Below, piece after piece: positions 5,022-40,660 of a DNA stretch of 44,315 nt. This DNA is from an uncultured Desulfosporosinus sp. Lineage in GTDB: Bacteria; Bacillota; Desulfitobacteriia; Desulfitobacteriales; Desulfitobacteriaceae. Location: the NCBI GenBank assembly GCA_927405585.1, contig CAKMJS010000092.1:1-44315 (forward strand), written 5' to 3'. The notes under the pieces were generated by a model. It did no database searches. It saw only the letters and a program-made list of their open reading frames with translations, and was not told where the DNA came from. The position numbers and the translations under genes are program-made. Every line of letters begins with the position of its first letter. Positions within the stretch are counted from its first letter, which is position 1.

Positions 5022-5057
5022 ATACCACTGTAGGCACTGTTAAAACAATGTTGTGTT

Positions 5058-5073
5058 GGCATAGTAATTGCAT
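5058..5073 (+). promoter_or_regulatory. Sigma-54 (-24/-12) promoter for atoDA
   Basis: TGGCATAGTAATTGCA has the invariant GG and GC separated by exactly ten bases, close to the TGGCAC-N5-TTGCA consensus. It lies about 50 bp before atoD. The nearby sigma-54 activator AtoC is the likely regulator, by analogy with the E. coli ato genes. No matching enhancer pair was seen just upstream. Confidence 0.75.
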
Positions 5074-8413: not shown

Positions 8414-9798
8414 AATCCGTGTTCCTGAATCTTATAAATTAAACCACGTCGGGAGATTTGTAATAGCCTGGCGGCATGAGCCCGATTTTCATGGGTTAAT
8501 TTGAGTGCTTCAGCGATATGCTTTTTTTCTGTTTCTGCTAAGGCCTCTCGTAGTGGAGTAAAGGATGTACATTCTGCGGCATTCAACGTAGCGGGCTTCC
8601 CGACATCTTCCTTGCTGATCTCAAAGGGAAGATGCTCCGCTAAAATGATTTTGGAATTACTCATGATCAAAGCATGTTCAATAGCATTTTCCAATTCACG
8701 CACATTGCCTGGCCAGGAATAACGGTTTAAAACGGTATATACCTCTGGAATAAAAACGACACCTTGTCTTCCTATCTCGGAAGCATAACGAGAAAGCAGA
8801 TAATCGGCGAGGAGGGATATATCGTCCTCCCTCTCACGTAAGGGGGGGAGATGGATCGAGACTACATTTAAGCGATAGTATAAATCTGAACGAAAGCGTT
8901 TCTCCTCAACTTCTTTCGGCAAATCCCGGTTTGTGGCGGCAATGATGCGGACGTCTGTTTTAAACGTTTTTATTCCACCGACCCGTTCAAATTCCCGTTC
9001 CTGTAAAACTCGTAAGAGTTTGACTTCGAGAGAAGGGCCAAGTTCAGCTATCTCATCGAGAAATAGTGTGCCTCCTTCTGCCAGTTCAAACTTACCTGGC
9101 CGCTGTGTAATGGCCCCAGTAAAAGCACCTCGTTCATGACCAAATAATTCGCTTTCCAGCAGACCCTCCGGAATTGCTCCGCAGTTGACCTGGATGAAGG
9201 GTTTTTGCCAGCGATCGCTATTATAATGGATTGTCCTCGCTACCATCCCTTTGCCCGTACCACTTTCTCCTGTCAGTAAAACTGTGGCCTTGGAGGCAGC
9301 AACTCTACCGATGCTTTTATACACATCGTGCATCTTGGGGCTTCTGCCGATTAACTGACCCGGCCCGCCCGTTACCCGACTCAAGGTACGCACTTGTTCG
9401 GTTAAGTATTCAAGATCTTTAGTGAGTCTTCTAATATGGATCGCTCGTTCAACTAGAATCTTGACTTCATTAAGGTTAAAGGGTTTGGTTAAGTAGTCGA
9501 ACGCGCCCCGTTTCATGGCTTCAACGGTGATTTCGGCACTGCCAAAGGCTGTCATCAAGATTACCGGTAAATCAGGAAATAATGTATGTATTTCGCGGAA
9601 AGCGATAAGCCCATCCATTTTAGGCATGCGCACATCCAAAATGACGACATCATATTCGACTTCCTGTACTTGCTTGACTGCCGCTAAGCCGTCATTCACT
9701 GTATCGACAAGATAGCCTGCCTTAGTAAGTGCTGTTCGCAGGACTAGACGAAGGCTTTCTTCGTCATCCCCGACTAAAATTCTTGATGGTCCGGACAT
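8410..9798 (-). CDS. atoC: AtoC-like sigma-54-dependent response regulator
   Basis: A 462-residue NtrC-family regulator. The receiver domain (about residues 1-120) has the acidic pair in VGDDEE, the phospho-acceptor Asp in ILDVRMPKMDG, the Thr in LMTAFGS and the Lys in LTKPFN. The AAA+ domain (about 145-380) has Walker A GESGTGKG, the sigma-54 contact loop GAFTGA and Walker B GTLFLDE. A Fis-type helix-turn-helix ends the protein (NRAHAARLLQISRRGLIYKI). ATG 9798 is fixed by GGAGGTGAAAGA directly upstream, leaving 22 bp to the kinase gene. It probably activates the sigma-54 promoters before atoE and atoD. The name follows context and family; many NtrC-type paralogues look alike, so the symbol is less certain than the family. 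Confidence 0.88.
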   Translation of the reverse strand: MSGPSRILVGDDEESLRLVLRTALTKAGYLVDTVNDGLAAVKQVQEVEYDVVILDVRMPKMDGLIAFREIHTLFPDLPVILMTAFGSAEITVEAMKRGAFDYLTKPFNLNEVKILVERAIHIRRLTKDLEYLTEQVRTLSRVTGGPGQLIGRSPKMHDVYKSIGRVAASKATVLLTGESGTGKGMVARTIHYNSDRWQKPFIQVNCGAIPEGLLESELFGHERGAFTGAITQRPGKFELAEGGTLFLDEIAELGPSLEVKLLRVLQEREFERVGGIKTFKTDVRIIAATNRDLPKEVEEKRFRSDLYYRLNVVSIHLPPLREREDDISLLADYLLSRYASEIGRQGVVFIPEVYTVLNRYSWPGNVRELENAIEHALIMSNSKIILAEHLPFEISKEDVGKPATLNAAECTSFTPLREALAETEKKHIAEALKLTHENRAHAARLLQISRRGLIYKIQEHGL

Positions 9799-26307: not shown

Positions 26308-28188
26308 ATGCAGGATGGATCCGTAAATGAACCTACTATTGCAGTATTAAGCTATCACGCTTTATCTTCGTTGATCAACCAACTTCAATATAAAGCACCT
26401 CATCCGGTCCGTATTCTTGTTATTGACTGTATGTTAAAAGATGTCCTGGAAAAGGCAAAAGATATGGAAAAAGACGGGAAAGTTGATGTTTTCCTTTCTG
26501 CGGGAGGAACCGCTAAACTTCTCTCAGGCAAGTTATCGAACCCTTTAGTAGAAATTAAAGTAACTGGCTTCGACATTCTAGCGGCACTTAAAGAGGCCAA
26601 ATTATATTCAGATATCGTAGCTCTTATTTCGTATGAAAGCAAAATTCCTAATCTAGAAAACCTATCTGGATTGCTGAATATTACAATTAAGCAATATACT
26701 TATCAACATATTACTGATATTGAAGAGATCCTAAACCAACTTCAATACGAAGGTGTGAAAGTTGTCATTGGGGGAAGCTTTCTCCAAGAAGTAATTAGCA
26801 ACAAAGAAATCAAAGGAATCAAGGGAATCTTTATTTACTCATCAGACGGCGTGACTCGGGCCCTGGATACTGCGGTCCAAATTGCTTTTTCTAAGAAAGT
26901 TGAGGCTAGAAAAGCGGAGGAATTACGGGCAATTTTAGCCTTTTCGTATGAAGGTATCATAGCTGTTGACAGGAACGGGCTCATCACGGTCATTAACTCA
27001 AGTGCCGAAAAAATGATTGGTACATCTCAATACAAAGTCCTAGGTCAATCTATTACTAATATTTTTCCCTCTGCGAAGCTTACTAAAGTTATTCAAAGTC
27101 GCATACCAGAGCTCAACCAGATTGAGTCAGTAGGAAATAGCCAAATTGTTATTAACCGTATACCAATCTTGGTAAATACTGAGGTAATGGGAGCTGTGGC
27201 AACGTTTCAAAATATTGGAATCATCCAAGAAGCTGAGGAAAACATTCGCAAAAGTTTATATAAGAAAGGTTTTGTGGCTAAAACATTTATTAAAGATATT
27301 ATTGGTACCAGTGACCAGATACAAAAAGCTAAACGTGAGGCTTTTCTCTATGCGAAAAACCCCTCCTCGGTTTTAATCACGGGTGAGTCTGGAACTGGGA
27401 AGGAACTTTTTGCCCAAGGTATTCATAATGCTGGTTTACGTTTTCGCCATCCTTTTGTCACTATAAACTGTGCAGCCATTCCTGATAACTTATTGGAGAG
27501 CGAGCTTTTTGGGTACGAAGAAGGTGCTTTCACGGGAGCTAAAAAGGGTGGAAAACCCGGATTATTTGAACTTGCACATGAGGGAACCGTATTTTTAGAC
27601 GAAATTGGGGAATTGTCCATGTCATTACAATCTCGTCTGTTACGGGTCTTAGAAGAACATGAGGTTCTACGTATTGGAGGAGACCATATTCGTTCAGTAA
27701 ACATCCAGGTTATATCCGCTACAAATAAAGATCTGTGGGAAATGACCTTAAAAGGTGACTTTCGAAAGGATTTGTATTATAGGCTAAACGTCTTAGAACT
27801 TCGTCTTCCACCTCTTCGAGTTCGCAAAACAGACATTCCTTTACTCGTGAAAAAGTTTCTTTTGGAAAAGTGTCATGATCTTACAGAAATAGATATTGAA
27901 GCGATTTCTCAACAAACAGTATTTAAAGACTATAACTGGCCGGGTAATATCCGGGAGCTAAGAAATATTATCGAACGATTCGCGGCGCTCTATAGAGAAG
28001 AGGAGTATGAGCAGTTACTTTTATCATTATTCGAACGCCTTACACCTTCTGCGCGATGTTCGAGTGAACAAGAAGAACTTAACCATGTTATAAATAGCGT
28101 CCAAGGTAACAAAACAGAGGCGGCAAAAAAACTTGGTATTAGTCGAACGACGCTCTGGAGAAAAATGAAAGGATACGATACTATCTAG
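26308..28188 (+). CDS. prpR: PrpR-like sigma-54-dependent activator (PrpR_N-PAS-AAA-Fis)
   Basis: A 626-residue one-component regulator with no receiver domain. Residues about 10-195 match the PrpR_N sensor domain (DVFLSAGGTAKLL, then VKVVIGGSF). A PAS domain lies at about 205-310. The AAA+ domain (about 330-560) has Walker A GESGTGKE, the sigma-54 contact loop GAFTGA and Walker B GTVFLDE, and the protein ends with a Fis-type helix-turn-helix (NKTEAAKKLGISRTTLWRKM). Family members sense propionate intermediates such as 2-methylcitrate, or related ligands. The next gene cluster is the methylmalonyl-CoA pathway with a strong sigma-54 promoter, so it very likely controls that. The ATG lies 8 bases after AAAGGGGAG. 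Confidence 0.9.
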   Translation: MQDGSVNEPTIAVLSYHALSSLINQLQYKAPHPVRILVIDCMLKDVLEKAKDMEKDGKVDVFLSAGGTAKLLSGKLSNPLVEIKVTGFDILAALKEAKLYSDIVALISYESKIPNLENLSGLLNITIKQYTYQHITDIEEILNQLQYEGVKVVIGGSFLQEVISNKEIKGIKGIFIYSSDGVTRALDTAVQIAFSKKVEARKAEELRAILAFSYEGIIAVDRNGLITVINSSAEKMIGTSQYKVLGQSITNIFPSAKLTKVIQSRIPELNQIESVGNSQIVINRIPILVNTEVMGAVATFQNIGIIQEAEENIRKSLYKKGFVAKTFIKDIIGTSDQIQKAKREAFLYAKNPSSVLITGESGTGKELFAQGIHNAGLRFRHPFVTINCAAIPDNLLESELFGYEEGAFTGAKKGGKPGLFELAHEGTVFLDEIGELSMSLQSRLLRVLEEHEVLRIGGDHIRSVNIQVISATNKDLWEMTLKGDFRKDLYYRLNVLELRLPPLRVRKTDIPLLVKKFLLEKCHDLTEIDIEAISQQTVFKDYNWPGNIRELRNIIERFAALYREEEYEQLLLSLFERLTPSARCSSEQEELNHVINSVQGNKTEAAKKLGISRTTLWRKMKGYDTI

Positions 28189-28228
28189 TTCTACAGGCGG
28201 GATGGTGAGTGAAACACCTGGAATACAC

Positions 28229-28274
28229 GAAACGCTTGAAACGACCTGCAACGCCATTGTAACGATATGTTTCG
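28229..28274. promoter_or_regulatory. Helically phased GNAACG array, candidate PrpR enhancer
   Basis: GAAACG (28229), GAAACG (28238), GCAACG (28248), GTAACG (28259) and GTTTCG (28269) recur every 9-11 bp, placing them on one face of the helix. GAAACA at 28211 may extend the array. It lies 75-120 bp upstream of the sigma-54 promoter, the normal enhancer position. Confidence 0.5.
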
Positions 28275-28297
28275 ATGAGACAAATTAAGACTAACAC

Positions 28298-28336
28298 AAA
28301 AAGAGGCGGAATGTGGCTATTCCGCCTCTTTTTTGT
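28298..28336 (+). terminator. Terminator after the prpR-like gene
   Basis: Fifteen-base perfect arms (28298-28312 and 28319-28333) have a 6-base loop and T-rich tail; this is one of the clearest hairpins in the window. It insulates the operon from the regulator gene. Confidence 0.92.
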
Positions 28337-28348
28337 CATGCCAAAAAT

Positions 28349-28364
28349 TGGCATGAATCTTGCA
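28349..28364 (+). promoter_or_regulatory. Sigma-54 (-24/-12) promoter of the methylmalonyl-CoA operon
   Basis: TGGCATGAATCTTGCA is a near-perfect match to the sigma-54 consensus (TGGCAC, N5, TTGCA), with GG and GC ten bases apart. A PrpR-type activator gene lies immediately upstream. Confidence 0.87.
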
Positions 28365-28414
28365 ATATATAGAAATCAGATAATTGTGAATAGATAGAGA
28401 AAGGAGCTTTTGGC

Positions 28415-28579
28415 TTGAAAATTTACGAATACATGGCGAAAGAGATTCTTCAACGTAATGGAATTCCTGTCCCAATGTGGGCGGTTTCAGTCAAAAGAAT
28501 GGGGCATGCTGGAGCAATTATTGAACGAGGTAATGGGACCTTTGAGAGTAAAGTTGAAGCATTAACTGCTGCGTTGTAA
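28415..28579 (+). pseudogene. sucC-sucD deletion scar (54-codon fusion remnant)
   Basis: The TTG-started frame (AAAGGAG upstream) encodes 54 residues. The first 20 (MKIYEYMAKEILQRNGIPVP) match the start of succinyl-CoA synthetase beta chain SucC. Residues about 27-53 (KRMGHAGAIIERGNGTFESK, then VEALTAA) match the C-terminal part of the alpha chain SucD, where KRMGHAGAI is a hallmark. The middle of both genes is missing, as if one internal deletion joined them. It is the first frame after the sigma-54 promoter, so an ancestral sucCD probably headed this operon. Whether the residual peptide is made or useful is unknown. Confidence 0.75.
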
Positions 28580-28583
28580 GAGT

Positions 28584-28609
28584 GGCTAACCTGCCATGGG
28601 AGGTTGGCC
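28584..28609 (+). other. Intercistronic hairpin before the mutase gene
   Basis: Nine-base arms GGCTAACCT and AGGTTGGCC (one G-T pair) flank an 8-base loop, with no T-run. It may be an mRNA processing or stabilising hairpin, or part of the deleted sucD 3' region. Confidence 0.45.
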
Positions 28610-28651
28610 CTCTCGTCAAGCAAGCATTAGCACAGGGGAGTGAGAAAATCT

Positions 28652-30316
28652 ATGGATAAAGGTAAGGAATTAGAAAAAATTACCCAAGCAAGAGCTCTTT
28701 GGGAGAGTAAAAAGAAGCCTTCTGAATTAACTAATAAACGGGTGTCAACCGTAGAGTCCGAGATCGACTTTCAGCCGCTTTATGCACCAGATAGTCTAGA
28801 TATGGACTATTTAAGAGATTTGAGCTTTCCGGGAGAATTTCCGTATACTCGTGGTGTTCAACCGGACATGTACCGGGGTAGGTTCTGGACAATGCGTCAA
28901 TATGCCGGCTTTGGAAGCGCGCAAGAAACTAACACCAGATTTCTCTATCTTCTGAAACAAGGGCAGACGGGCTTGAGCGTTGCCTTCGATCTGGTGACCC
29001 AAATTGGTTATAACTCTGACGACCCTCTGGCCCAAGGAGAAGTGGGTAAAGTTGGCGTTGCAATCGATTCCTTGGCTGACATGGAAGCACTCTTCAAGGA
29101 TATCCCACTAGATAAGGTTAGCACATCTATGACGATTAATGCTCCCGCTGCCATACTGCTGGCAATGTATATTGTGGTTGCCGAAAAGCAGGGTATAGAA
29201 CCCTCCAAGTTATCAGGAACCATTCAAAATGACATTTTAAAGGAATATATGGCCAGAGGAACCTATATTTTCCCTCCGGTACCCTCAATGCGTCTCATCA
29301 CGGATACCTTTAAATATTGTGCCGTGCATCTTCCGAACTGGAACACGATTAGTATCAGTGGCTATCATATTCGCGAAGCCGGCTCGAATGCGGTTCAAGA
29401 GGTGGCTTTTACCCTGGCGGACGGAATTGCCTATGTACAAGCTGCCCTAGACGTTGGATTAGAAATTGATCATTTTGCACCCCGTCTCTCCTTTTTCTTC
29501 AATGCCCACTCCAACTTTTTTGAAGAAATCGCCAAGTTTAGAGCTGCTCGTAGAGTGTGGGCTCAGATTATGAAAAACAGGTTTAAGGCTCAGAATCCCA
29601 AATCACTAATGCTGCGTTTTCATACTCAGACTGCAGGGTGCACCTTGACGGCCCAACAACCCGAGGTGAATATCATGCGGGTGGCCTTTCAGGCACTGAG
29701 TGCTGTACTTGGAGGCACCCAATCCTTGCATACAAATGCTTGGGATGAGGCACTCGCGCTGCCAAGCGAAGAATCGGCACTTCTCGCTTTACGAACCCAA
29801 CAGACCATTGCCTACGAAACTGGCGTCACGGATACGGTGGATCCCTTGGGCGGTTCTTATGCCGTAGAAAAATTGACGGAGGACCTAGAAAAGGCCGTCT
29901 GGGACTATATTGATCAGATTGATGAATTAGGAGGCGCCGTCCGGGCCATCGAACTTGGTTTTCAACAACGGGAAATCCAGGCGAGTGCCTATCGTTATCA
30001 AATGGAGATCGAGCATCAACAACGAATTATTGTTGGCATTAATAAATTTCAGATAAAGCAAGATCCACCGCAAGGATTACTGAGGATAAATCCTCAAGTT
30101 GAGCAAGAGCAAAAGAAAAAATTAGCTGCAGTCTATCGGAAAAGAAATCAAGCTGTGGTGGAAAAGAGTCTAATTGAGTTAGAGAAAGCAGCACAGAGTA
30201 CGGAAAACTTAATGCCCTATCTTCTGGATTGTGTCCGGGAGTACACCACATTGGGTGAAATCTGCGATGTATTACGAAAAGTATTTGGAGAATACAGGCA
30301 AGAGAACACCTTTTAG
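28652..30316 (+). CDS. mcmA1: Methylmalonyl-CoA mutase, large (catalytic) subunit
   Basis: A 554-residue catalytic barrel subunit, with the B12 domain on a separate gene (next). Conserved parts include [43 protein letters not shown] and [10 protein letters not shown]. The Tyr in RQYAGF and the Arg in PSMR, which select methylmalonyl-CoA, are both present, whereas isobutyryl-CoA mutases have Phe and Gln there. The His in GYHIREAG contacts B12. It interconverts (R)-methylmalonyl-CoA and succinyl-CoA in the cytoplasm. ATG 28652 with GGGGAG upstream is preferred over GTG 28640. It is the first intact gene of the sigma-54 operon. Confidence 0.93.
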
Positions 30317-30777: not shown

Positions 30778-31185
30778 ATGGGCATTCAATTACAACTTGA
30801 TCATCTAGGGATCGCCGTCGCAAACTTAGACGAGGCCATAGGGGTCTATGAAGCGTTAGGGCTAAGGTGTAGCCATATAGAAACGGTCCAAGAACAAAAT
30901 GTTAGGACCGCGACCTTACCTTTAGGCGACACTAATCTGGAACTATTAGAGCCTACAGTAGCCGACAGTTCCATCGGGAAATTTCTCGCCACCCGAGGGG
31001 GCGGCCTACATCATATTGCACTTCAGGTCGAGAACATTGAAGAAAAATTACTAGAATTAAAAACTTTAGGATTTCGTTTAATCGATGAGACGCCTAGAAT
31101 CGGTCTAGGGGGTAGCCGTATCGCGTTTATACATCCCAAAAGTACTTTCAATACACTCATAGAACTCGTACAACGCGGCAGTTAA
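30778..31185 (+). CDS. mce: Methylmalonyl-CoA epimerase
   Basis: A 135-residue VOC-fold metalloenzyme with two beta-alpha-beta units. Expected metal ligands are His9 (QLDHLGIAV), a His in GGGLHHIAL and the Glu in LIELVQ near the end. It converts (R)- to (S)-methylmalonyl-CoA, linking the mutase to the decarboxylase whose genes follow. Size and operon position are as usual. AGGAGAG lies upstream of the ATG. Confidence 0.93.
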   Translation: MGIQLQLDHLGIAVANLDEAIGVYEALGLRCSHIETVQEQNVRTATLPLGDTNLELLEPTVADSSIGKFLATRGGGLHHIALQVENIEEKLLELKTLGFRLIDETPRIGLGGSRIAFIHPKSTFNTLIELVQRGS

Positions 31186-34678: not shown

Positions 34679-34757
34679 AACTAGTTTAGGTGAGAGTTAC
34701 CTATCTTACAATTCTGCAAGATCAGATATTTTAACTGTTGATATGGGGGGGAGAGTC

Positions 34758-35180
34758 ATGCGAAGCGATTTTCGCTTTTTCCACCGGTTAAGGGTTCGGT
34801 ATTCGGAAGTTGATTGGCAAGGAATTGTATTTAATGCGCACTACCTAACCTATCTGGATGTTGCCATAACAGAATATTTCCGAAAGATTGGTCTTGATTA
34901 TATGCAACTTGTTCAAGAAGGCAAAATGGATATGGCTCTAGTCAAAACTACCCTGGAGTTCAAAAGCTCAGCGATGTTCGATGAAGAGTTAGAAATCGGG
35001 ACGCGCATTTTCCACATAGGAAATACAAGTTATAGTGTAGAGTTTGAGATTTATAAAACTGGTTCAGAGGATTTAGTACTTAGAGCCCAAACCATCTATG
35101 TAAACTACAACTCTGTAAAACGCAAAGCTGAACAAGTGCCGGTATTCTTCCGATCTTCGGTCCAAACCTTTGAACAATAA
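34758..35180 (+). CDS. Acyl-CoA thioesterase, YbgC/4HBT hot-dog family
   Basis: A 140-residue single hot-dog domain. The catalytic Asp region is VRYSEVDWQGIVFNAHYLTYLDVA (about residues 10-33), matching the DxxGxVxxxxY pattern of 4-hydroxybenzoyl-CoA thioesterase-like enzymes. It hydrolyses a small acyl-CoA in the cytoplasm. ATG 34758 follows GGGGGAG; longer frames from 34668 would overlap mmdB and have weaker sites. It closes the propionate operon, so it may release propionate or prevent CoA trapping; this is inference. A strong terminator follows. Confidence 0.85.
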   Translation: MRSDFRFFHRLRVRYSEVDWQGIVFNAHYLTYLDVAITEYFRKIGLDYMQLVQEGKMDMALVKTTLEFKSSAMFDEELEIGTRIFHIGNTSYSVEFEIYKTGSEDLVLRAQTIYVNYNSVKRKAEQVPVFFRSSVQTFEQ

Positions 35181-39113: not shown

Positions 39114-39935
39114 ATGATAAGCAAACTTATGACTATGCCTGACGCAGTCCGATTAGTGCTAAACGGGCAAATGCTAGCGGTCGGTGGCAATGCTTTACAT
39201 CGAACCCCTGCTGCATTCTGTCAGGAATTAGCGATGTTGAAACGAACCCATCTCAAAGGGGTGGGTGCTGCGCCTGGTTTTGCGATGGACGTTCTCTGCG
39301 CAGCGGAAAGTATGAATGAAGTATACTTTGGTTTCTTTGGCTTCGAAAATGAGTATGGCTTGGCTCCAGGCATGAGAAAAGGAATACAATCAGGAAAAAT
39401 CAAAGCCATAGAGGGTTCGTGAACGGCAATTATTAATGCTCTCCGTGCGGGAGCGTATGGGATTCCGTTCATGGGCGTAGGAGGTATGTGGGGGAGTGAT
39501 TTAATCGCTCAGCGCCCTGAATTCTTTCAAATCATGAAGAGTCCGTTCTCGGATGAAGAGGTTGTAACAGTAAAGGCTTTGCAGCCTGATTGGGCGATTA
39601 TCCATGTTCAAGAAGCAGATCAGTACGGTAATGCCCGGATCATAGGCTCGGATTTCCAGGATATCTTACTTAGCCGCGCAGCAAAGAAAACTATTATTAC
39701 CACTGAAAAACTGATTGAGACTGAAAGCTTTAGGCAAGAACCAAAACTAACCTCCATTCCCTATTTCTTGGTCGAAGCGGTCGTCTTAGCACCGGAAGGA
39801 GCTAAGCCAGGTATTTGTTACCCTACCTACAATAGTGTGGATGCTTCGGGAATGGCTGCGTATGGTCAAGCAATCAAAGAAGGTAAGTTGGACGATTACC
39901 TAGCACGCGTGACGGGATGGGAGGGTGTAAAATGA
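39114..39935 (+). CDS. GctA-type CoA-transferase alpha subunit with in-frame TGA (candidate selenoprotein)
   Basis: Read through TGA at 39420-39422, this is one 273-residue chain of the glutaconate CoA-transferase alpha family. Before the TGA are MTMPDAVRLVLNGQMLAVGG and GMRKGIQSGKIKAIEGS; directly after it, with no shift, are TAIINALRAGAYGIPF, then WAIIHVQEADQYGNARIIG and VVLAPEGAKPG. Without gaps it aligns with the known Acidaminococcus GctA segment EDYSQDVIYMMWHAAALGLPF, the TGA falling at the Gln. A SECIS-like hairpin follows at 39436-39456. The downstream beta gene overlaps by ATGA, so the coupling has been kept. A recent nonsense mutation, or restart near 39471, is the alternative. The start ATG follows AAGGAGGAGG. 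Acyl substrate unknown. Confidence 0.78.
39436..39456 (+). promoter_or_regulatory. Candidate bacterial SECIS hairpin
   Basis: Eight base pairs (A39436-T39456, T-G, then GCTCTC with GGGAGC) close a 5-base loop CGTGC. The loop starts 21 bases after the TGA and has G at its second position, which fits the general bacterial SECIS rules (loop 16-37 nt from TGA, G among its first two bases). Folding was done by eye. Confidence 0.55.
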
Positions 39936-40660
39936 ATTATGGACCAGCCGAAATAATGGTTACTGCTCTTGCTCGAGAAATTATGAGTAGAGATATTGTC
40001 TTCCACGGTCTAGCTTCGCCAGTACCCATGACTGCCATGAAGCTGGCAAAAGCCTTGGGCATAGAGTTTACATTCATCAATATTGCGGGTGGAGTCGATC
40101 CCAACTGGGGGAACCCTGCAGTCATAGGGTCTACACTTTCTTCAAACTTGTATGAGGGCGGAGTGGCAGACTATGGTTTGGATGAAATTTTTGATCTGGC
40201 TTGTACAGGCCGAGTAGATATTTCAATGTTGAGCTTGGTGCAAATAAGCCCGAGGGGCGAGATAAATATGTCCTTTGTAGGAGGGGAATACGATAAGCCA
40301 AAGGTGAGATTGCCTGGAGGTGCAGGGAGTGCTACTTTAACACCCGTGACTAAGAAAACCTTGATTTGGAAGACGAAGCAGGATATTAAGTCATTCGTTC
40401 CGGAAGTGGCTTTTTGCACGGCTAAAGCTGATCCTTTCAAACAATTTAAAGTGATCACTAATTTATGTACGTTCGTCATGGAAAACGGGCTGTTAGTTCT
40501 TGAAAGCATTCACCCCTACTCTAATTTGGCTGAAGTGCAAGCTAATACAGGCTGGGAAATTACTCAGACGGATTTACCCTTAACTTTGGCGCCAAGCGAA
40601 GAAGAACTGGCTCTGATCGAAAAAGTTGATCCCAATCGAATTCGATATATTGAATTTTAA
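39932..40660 (+). CDS. GctB-type CoA-transferase beta subunit
   Basis: A 242-residue beta subunit of the glutaconate CoA-transferase (IpdB/GctB) family: [31 protein letters not shown] at the start, later [16 protein letters not shown] and [13 protein letters not shown]. It pairs with the upstream alpha subunit to transfer CoA between organic acids. The ATG is inside the alpha stop (ATGA) and follows GGGAGGG. The 3' end overlaps, antisense, the open tail of a broken ABC transporter gene, marking a probable junction. The substrate may be a dicarboxylate or short acid; not determinable. Confidence 0.87.

Follow-up and report, generated by a model that had tools for sequence, protein, structure and literature searches.

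A broken sucCD gene pair at the head of a propionate operon and, 11 kb downstream, a CoA-transferase-fold gene pair with a conserved in-frame UGA codon occur together in a 44,315-nt stretch of DNA from an uncultured Desulfosporosinus sp. (contig CAKMJS010000092.1), the whole of which we call the window; features lie on its plus strand unless stated otherwise. We consider it very likely that one account covers both: the sucCD pseudogene is recent and is tolerated by virtue of a paralogue, and the downstream gene pair, unrelated to it, encodes an enzyme like IpdAB and AibAB in which UGA codon 103 specifies a catalytic selenocysteine (Sec). Judged by its sequence, region 28415-28659 is a recently formed sucCD pseudogene without succinyl-CoA synthetase function. 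It represents ordinary gene decay under redundancy.

A 54-residue frame with a TTG start (28415-28579) joins SucC residues 1-24 (28415-28487, by homology and DNA alignment), across a deletion junction at 28487-28493, to a C-terminal part of SucD that begins KRMGHAGAI and continues in the same frame (28493-28573, by tblastn). The first-pass annotation had described this 54-codon frame as a SucC-SucD fusion, and tblastn with the intact paralogues of the same genome finds homology to both genes. SucC matches 28400-28555 with E 4e-7, and SucD matches 28493-28573 plus, in a different frame, 28582-28644, with E 6e-11; at these E-values the similarity of the two halves is not due to chance. The Pfam ATP-grasp_2 N-terminus is found weakly in the frame (E 0.0059, under the gathering score). 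DNA alignment to six relatives shows the remnant parts to be collinear with both ends of intact sucCD, with about 1.77 kb gone between them. Aligned to the genome G019, positions 28206-28487 fall at the left and 28492-28672 at the right end of an interval of 2.2 kb. By eye, the alignment shows no long repeats flanking the deletion. A second lesion, missed in the first-pass annotation, is a 1-nt deletion after GCTGC (at about 28574), which creates the TAA at 28577-28579 and leaves the rest of the SucD tail in another frame, reaching 28659. The larger deletion would have fused sucC codons 1-24 in frame to the last part of sucD, and the further 1-nt deletion would truncate that fusion. What remains has neither the complete SucC ATP-grasp domain nor the SucD CoA-binding and phospho-His domains of a succinyl-CoA synthetase; it has syntenic homology to both genes together with disabling lesions, as a sucCD pseudogene should. 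At 54 codons, the frame is too short for selection to be shown or excluded.

The signals in front of the remnant are those that the first-pass annotation had listed as kept, and all are present: the TTG start, the ribosome-binding site of the former sucC (AAAGGAG, 28400-28406), and a sigma-54 promoter. The latter is a -24/-12 type site, TTGGCATGAATCTTGCA, at 28348-28364, an exact fit to the pattern. The match by itself is weak evidence, because the pattern with at most one mismatch has three matches in the window against 0.98 expected; relatives carry a sigma-54-type site at the equivalent position. Upstream lies a PrpR-like sigma-54 activator gene (26308-28188; Pfam PrpR_N, Sigma54_activat and HTH_8), orthologous in seven relatives. 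An inverted repeat with a T run 3' of prpR (28303-28335) resembles a terminator and is present in relatives; it was recognized by eye, the terminator scan having listed none. The first intact gene of the operon is now that for the methylmalonyl-CoA mutase large subunit (28652-30316; Pfam MM_CoA_mutase, E 1.5e-227), whose ATG follows the stop of the 54-residue frame by 72 nt, and the PrpR/sigma-54 promoter presumably drives the mutase operon directly since the loss of sucCD. Elsewhere in the window there is a second exact sigma-54-type site at 5056-5072 and a second sigma-54 activator-like gene at 8425-9354 on the minus strand. The prpR of one relative, G001 (L045:12695-12988), matches as two pieces in different frames, which suggests a frameshift.

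The operon varies at other places. Its epimerase (30778-31185) is 83% identical to those of G019 and G009 and 49% identical to those of G011, G001 and G012 (loci L042, L045 and L046), a case of gene replacement in an operon that is conserved in other respects. Beyond mmdA the operon has at least two forms, with a Na+-pump decarboxylase beta gene in the window, G011 and G001, and a biotin-carboxylase-like gene in G019 (L043:3576-5449). In the window the operon ends, directly 3' of the decarboxylase beta gene, with a gene for a YbgC/FadM-type acyl-CoA thioesterase (34743-35180), unmatched at 1e-5 in the orthologous loci read, of which L044 and L046 stop short of that place. This thioesterase is a possible other route for disposal of acyl-CoA, succinyl-CoA included.

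A search with the mutase covered the genome itself, 23 relatives from the genus and 16 other genomes. Eight genus genomes, the source genome included, encode a mutase of at least 83% identity and have prpR in front of it. In six of them (G011, G019, G009, G001, G012 and G008) a full-length sucC and a full-length sucD separate prpR from the mutase gene, and two loci of another family, in G024 and G026, likewise have full-length sucCD immediately before the mutase gene; the locus lacks sucCD in the window and in G003. The proposal that an internal sucCD deletion stands at the head of the PrpR-methylmalonyl-CoA mutase operon, made from the window by itself, is thus borne out by comparison of the locus. 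Against G011, the remnant differs at 13 of 72 bases in its sucC part and 5 of 81 in its sucD part, and the intact mutase gene is 87.1% identical at the DNA level. Because the remnant has diverged about as far as a working gene beside it, the loss must be recent. The loss of sucCD in G003 is by a different and cleaner deletion, leaving an interval of 217 bp (L047:7137-7353) with no match to sucC or sucD between promoter and mutase gene; the sigma-54-type site is kept and the mutase comes first. G003 and G008 are sisters (support 100/100), and G008 still has sucCD, so the losses in the window and in G003 are two independent events. A single loss common to both is ruled out on the same ground.

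These comparisons bear on two other explanations of the remnant. The 54-residue frame could have been retained for a function, either that of its product, a micropeptide, or that of its translation, a leader through which ribosomes are coupled to the mutase gene, and retention of promoter, ribosome site and start codon, with few amino-acid changes, would suit such a role. The time for decay has been short, however, the frameshift inside SucD ends the frame 72 nt ahead of the mutase ATG, and G003 has no sucC or sucD match anywhere from promoter to mutase gene; we regard a retained function of this kind as very improbable. The deletion could also be an artefact of assembly, the genome being a draft in 181 contigs. 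An artefact would not account for the second lesion in the remnant, for the failure to find another orthologous-type SucD in 4.48 Mb, or for another genus member without sucCD at the locus, and there is little chance that misassembly is the explanation.

The pseudogene does not mean that the organism has lost succinyl-CoA synthetase, as the first-pass annotation had supposed. Contig C5 of its genome carries an intact sucC-sucD pair (L003:3448-5471), and further, more distant sucCD-like pairs lie on C161 and C4; given the intact paralogue, the enzyme was not lost. The C5 pair has as neighbors what we take, from their ORFs, to be lysine-aminomutase-like and 2-oxoacid-oxidoreductase-like genes. 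Loss of the operon copy was probably tolerated thanks to the paralogous sucCD elsewhere in the genome.

The companion suggestion was that the CoA-transferase encoded at 39114-40660 took over succinate activation after loss of the synthetase. The broken state of this operon's sucCD and the presence of a CoA-transferase-fold gene pair 11 kb downstream speak for it. Across the eight genomes, however, presence of the gene does not follow sucCD loss. A close homolog of the CoA-transferase occurs in the window, where sucCD is lost, and in G019, where it is intact, and none was found in G003, which has lost sucCD, or in G011, G009, G001, G012 and G008, whose best matches are at about 30% identity or absent. 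With the gene in one of six intact and one of two deleted genomes, there is no sign of replacement; the absences from G012 and G009 count for little, as those genomes are 67% and 79% complete. G004 has a close homolog of the CoA-transferase and no match in the mutase search (genome 79% complete). The intact sucCD paralogue and the fold of the protein itself, with an alpha subunit nearest to IpdA, AibA and GctA and a beta subunit with Ile at the nucleophile column of AibB, also oppose the idea; with this Ile and the in-frame TGA in alpha, the pair does not look like a typical CoA-transferase. The paralogue, together with the absence of co-occurrence, leads us to reject synthetase loss followed by CoA-transferase takeover, and succession of the CoA-transferase to this role on any terms strikes us as highly unlikely. 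One argument that this organism activates succinate without ATP thereby falls away. The CoA-transferase-fold genes would then be unrelated to the loss of sucCD.

These genes have a history of their own. The alpha subunit is encoded at 39114-39935, provided that codon 103, a TGA at 39420-39422, is read as Sec; under the standard code translation would end at 39422, the next ATG being at 39471. Among 29 genus genomes, 21 have an alpha match. Five of these, the source genome included, are at 59-100% identity and all five have the TGA; the next-best genus matches, at about 31% identity, have no stop. A search of 398 genomes of the phylum found 59 with an alpha match at 1e-30 or better, and the 12 best, again including the source genome, all have the TGA, as do the more distant matches in G026, G406 and G274. 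In G263 and G215 a second stop besides the TGA marks the protein end. In the class of G346 (63 genomes), the TGA is found in 14 of 15 matches, the fifteenth beginning at residue 128, past the site; seven of the 14 genomes are also in the 398-genome phylum set. The class of G078 (four genomes) has two with the gene, both already known, and yielded nothing new. Seven further contig loci show TGA in six and TGC in one, from a Desulfovibrio metagenome-assembled genome; three of the six TGA genomes had already been counted.

Over 31 aligned rows, the codon at this column is TGA in 25, TGT in three, TGC in one, GAG in one and AAT in one. Removal of three duplicates leaves 28 rows, with TGA in 22 and Cys codons in four (G168, G340, G407 and L123); the homologs with Glu and Asn are from G070 and G387. 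The Cys-encoding L123 and the Sec-encoding L126 are sisters with support of 100/99, and the TGA homologs include one from the Desulfovibrionaceae. In an alignment (A2) of 23 rows, from which the five most distant ones (the Glu and Asn rows among them) were omitted, the column is U or C throughout. From the TGA to the next ATG, 28 codons differ over five pairwise comparisons, which are not independent of one another, and every one of these changes is synonymous.

A hairpin of SECIS type follows the TGA. The stretch GCTCTC-CGTGC-GGGAGC (39438-39454) starts 15 nt after the TGA, with its apical loop 21 nt after it, and forms six base pairs around a loop that is CGUGC or CGUGG. All six pairs form in 19 of 19 non-redundant TGA rows of the main family, so that 114 of 114 cells are paired; shuffles average 104.1, and none of 20000 does as well. 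In six rows without TGA only 15 of 36 cells are paired. The pairs covary at third codon positions (T-A/C-G/G-C and C-G/G-C/T-G/G-T). Fold energies of the region are near z = -1 in many TGA rows and by themselves do not discriminate; in G070, the row with Glu, the fold reaches -11.4 kcal/mol, in a different register. The TGA homologs in G026, G406 and G274 have hairpins in a different register as well. Two of these, G406 and G274 (L172 and L174), stand apart as a distant group in which the column reads DHTU; they may represent a second Sec lineage.

The machinery for Sec insertion is encoded in the source genome, with SelB scoring 375 bits against a cut-off of 242, and tRNA-Sec 66.1 bits against a gathering score of 47. 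Over 27 genomes the tRNA-Sec score is at least 64.9 in 26 and 49.3 in G070. Control genomes also give tRNA-Sec hits, in 14 of 14 cases and over the cut-off in five, so only high scores count. A conserved UGA, Cys homologs, a SECIS-like hairpin, SelB and tRNA-Sec are all found here, as in a bacterial selenoprotein. The conserved UGA of the alpha gene very probably encodes an active-site selenocysteine, UGA103 being read through the SECIS hairpin with SelB and tRNA-Sec. The TGA could instead be an ordinary stop, in a pseudogene or between two adjoining genes, as the end of the standard-code frame at 39422 and the ATG at 39471 would allow. That reading is hardly credible for a codon that 22 of 28 non-redundant homologs, one of them in the Desulfovibrionaceae, share at this position and that Cys codons replace in four, with a covarying hairpin retained in register in TGA rows and only synonymous changes up to the next ATG.

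Domain and structure searches place both subunits in the class I (GctAB-type) CoA-transferase fold. PF01144 (CoA_trans) is found in alpha and beta and in 23 of 23 alpha rows. An AlphaFold2 model of alpha with Cys at position 103 (mean pLDDT 93, pTM 0.91) has as its best structural matches IpdA (Z 34), AibA (33) and GctA (32), and in it residue 103 begins a helix that follows a strand. In the HMMER alignment, residue 103 falls on a position of IpdA occupied by Glu in 6co6 and by Ala in 6coj; since the title of 6coj names IpdAB E105A, the Sec103 column is that of IpdA Glu105. IpdAB is a steroid-ring CoA hydrolase. The window's alpha subunit does not have the Glu105 of an IpdAB-type hydrolase, the TGA (Sec) standing at the aligned position. 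The beta subunit (39932-40660), whose closest solved relative is AibB, has Ile51 where AibB has Cys, in a column that varies among AibB entries (Cys, Val, Ala, Ser or Asn). We take it to be the transferase Glu site as well, the alignment here being to AibB; by this column beta has Ile51 in place of the GctAB-type catalytic Glu. The other beta rows, read by eye, have Ile or Leu where the motif is readable, those of G406 and G274 not being assignable.

With a selenolate at the position of IpdA Glu105 and a beta subunit without the usual nucleophile, Sec is most likely the catalytic residue. From the alignment of residue 103, the alpha folds and the beta Ile, we infer IpdAB/AibAB-like action on acyl-CoA with catalytic Sec, which would stand instead of the glutamyl-CoA chemistry of CoA-transferases. 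As a more specific proposal, put forward tentatively and with chances a little short of even, these proteins may be a selenoenzyme family of anaerobic Firmicutes and Desulfovibrionaceae in which a selenolate replaces IpdA Glu105 or the beta Glu/Cys, for nucleophilic, non-redox acyl or carbon-carbon chemistry. A rather unlikely alternative is that the protein is a genuine CoA-transferase whose Sec is accessory, redox-protective or regulatory, and not catalytic. The CoA_trans Pfam match and the fold family agree with this, and CoA-disulfide-reductase-like and Hdr-like neighbors in other genomes suggest thiol redox; against an accessory residue speak a Sec column aligned to IpdA Glu105, U or C in 23 of 23 aligned rows (distant Glu and Asn rows left out), and a beta column without Glu.

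In other genomes the Sec gene pair occurs near HdrA/B/C-like genes and a CBS-PAS sigma-54 regulator (L157, L160, L162, L163, L164 and L165); these loci often also have a CoA-transferase pair without Sec, together with an MFS carrier. A CoA-disulfide-reductase-like gene lies near the pair in G104, G254, G367, L123 and L126. Neighbor proteins were profile-scanned in two genomes, G078 and G367. The neighbors elsewhere fit several chemistries. Around the window's copy the recurrent ones (Hdr-like cluster, Sec-free pair, MFS carrier and CoA-disulfide-reductase-like gene) are absent, so no substrate can be named. A plasmid origin of the 38-42 kb region was considered and set aside, there being no near match among plasmid records.

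Within the literature covered, the Sec gene looks like an undescribed selenoprotein family. In the parts consulted of mostly open literature (PMC13188914, PMC12013277, PMC9312934, PMC2398784, PMC1088965, PMC3582634 and PMC5113046), no description of a CoA-transferase-fold selenoprotein was found; Table 1 of PMC13188914 (2026) gives 119 prokaryotic selenoprotein families or subfamilies, none with this fold, and the nine new deep-Sep families include none either. NCBIfam has no model scoring over its cut-off for the alpha subunit. Because the standard code splits the alpha gene at the TGA, automatic annotation may well truncate or miss the protein. Should Sec103 prove real, the selenoproteins would gain a family that lies outside the usual redox folds, and one could ask directly, with this enzyme, whether Sec is able to act as the catalytic residue in acyl-CoA chemistry.

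Both parts of the window can be set against known systems. The sucCD genes in the propionate operons of relatives have the same order (prpR-sucC-sucD-mutase), start codon, promoter and gene ends as the window, which differs in lacking about 1.77 kb and in the frameshift of the rest. Like the bacterial selenoproteins listed in Table 1 of PMC13188914, the alpha subunit combines an in-frame UGA with Cys homologs, a downstream hairpin, SelB and tRNA-Sec. GctAB glutaconate CoA-transferase (1poi) is the best PDB sequence relative of alpha (E 4e-31), and the AlphaFold2 alpha model also matches 1poi, but GctA has Gln at the Sec column. In the AibA/AibB decarboxylase (5mzw-5n03), AibB is the nearest solved relative of beta (E 4e-27 for 5mzw), but AibB has Cys where the window's beta has Ile, and AibA has Gly where its alpha has Sec. 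IpdAB (6co6, 6co9, 6coj and 6con) shares the alpha fold, with Z 34 and an rmsd of 2.0 over 268 residues, and at about 25% identity its Glu105 corresponds to Sec103 of the window's alpha subunit, or to Cys in homologs.
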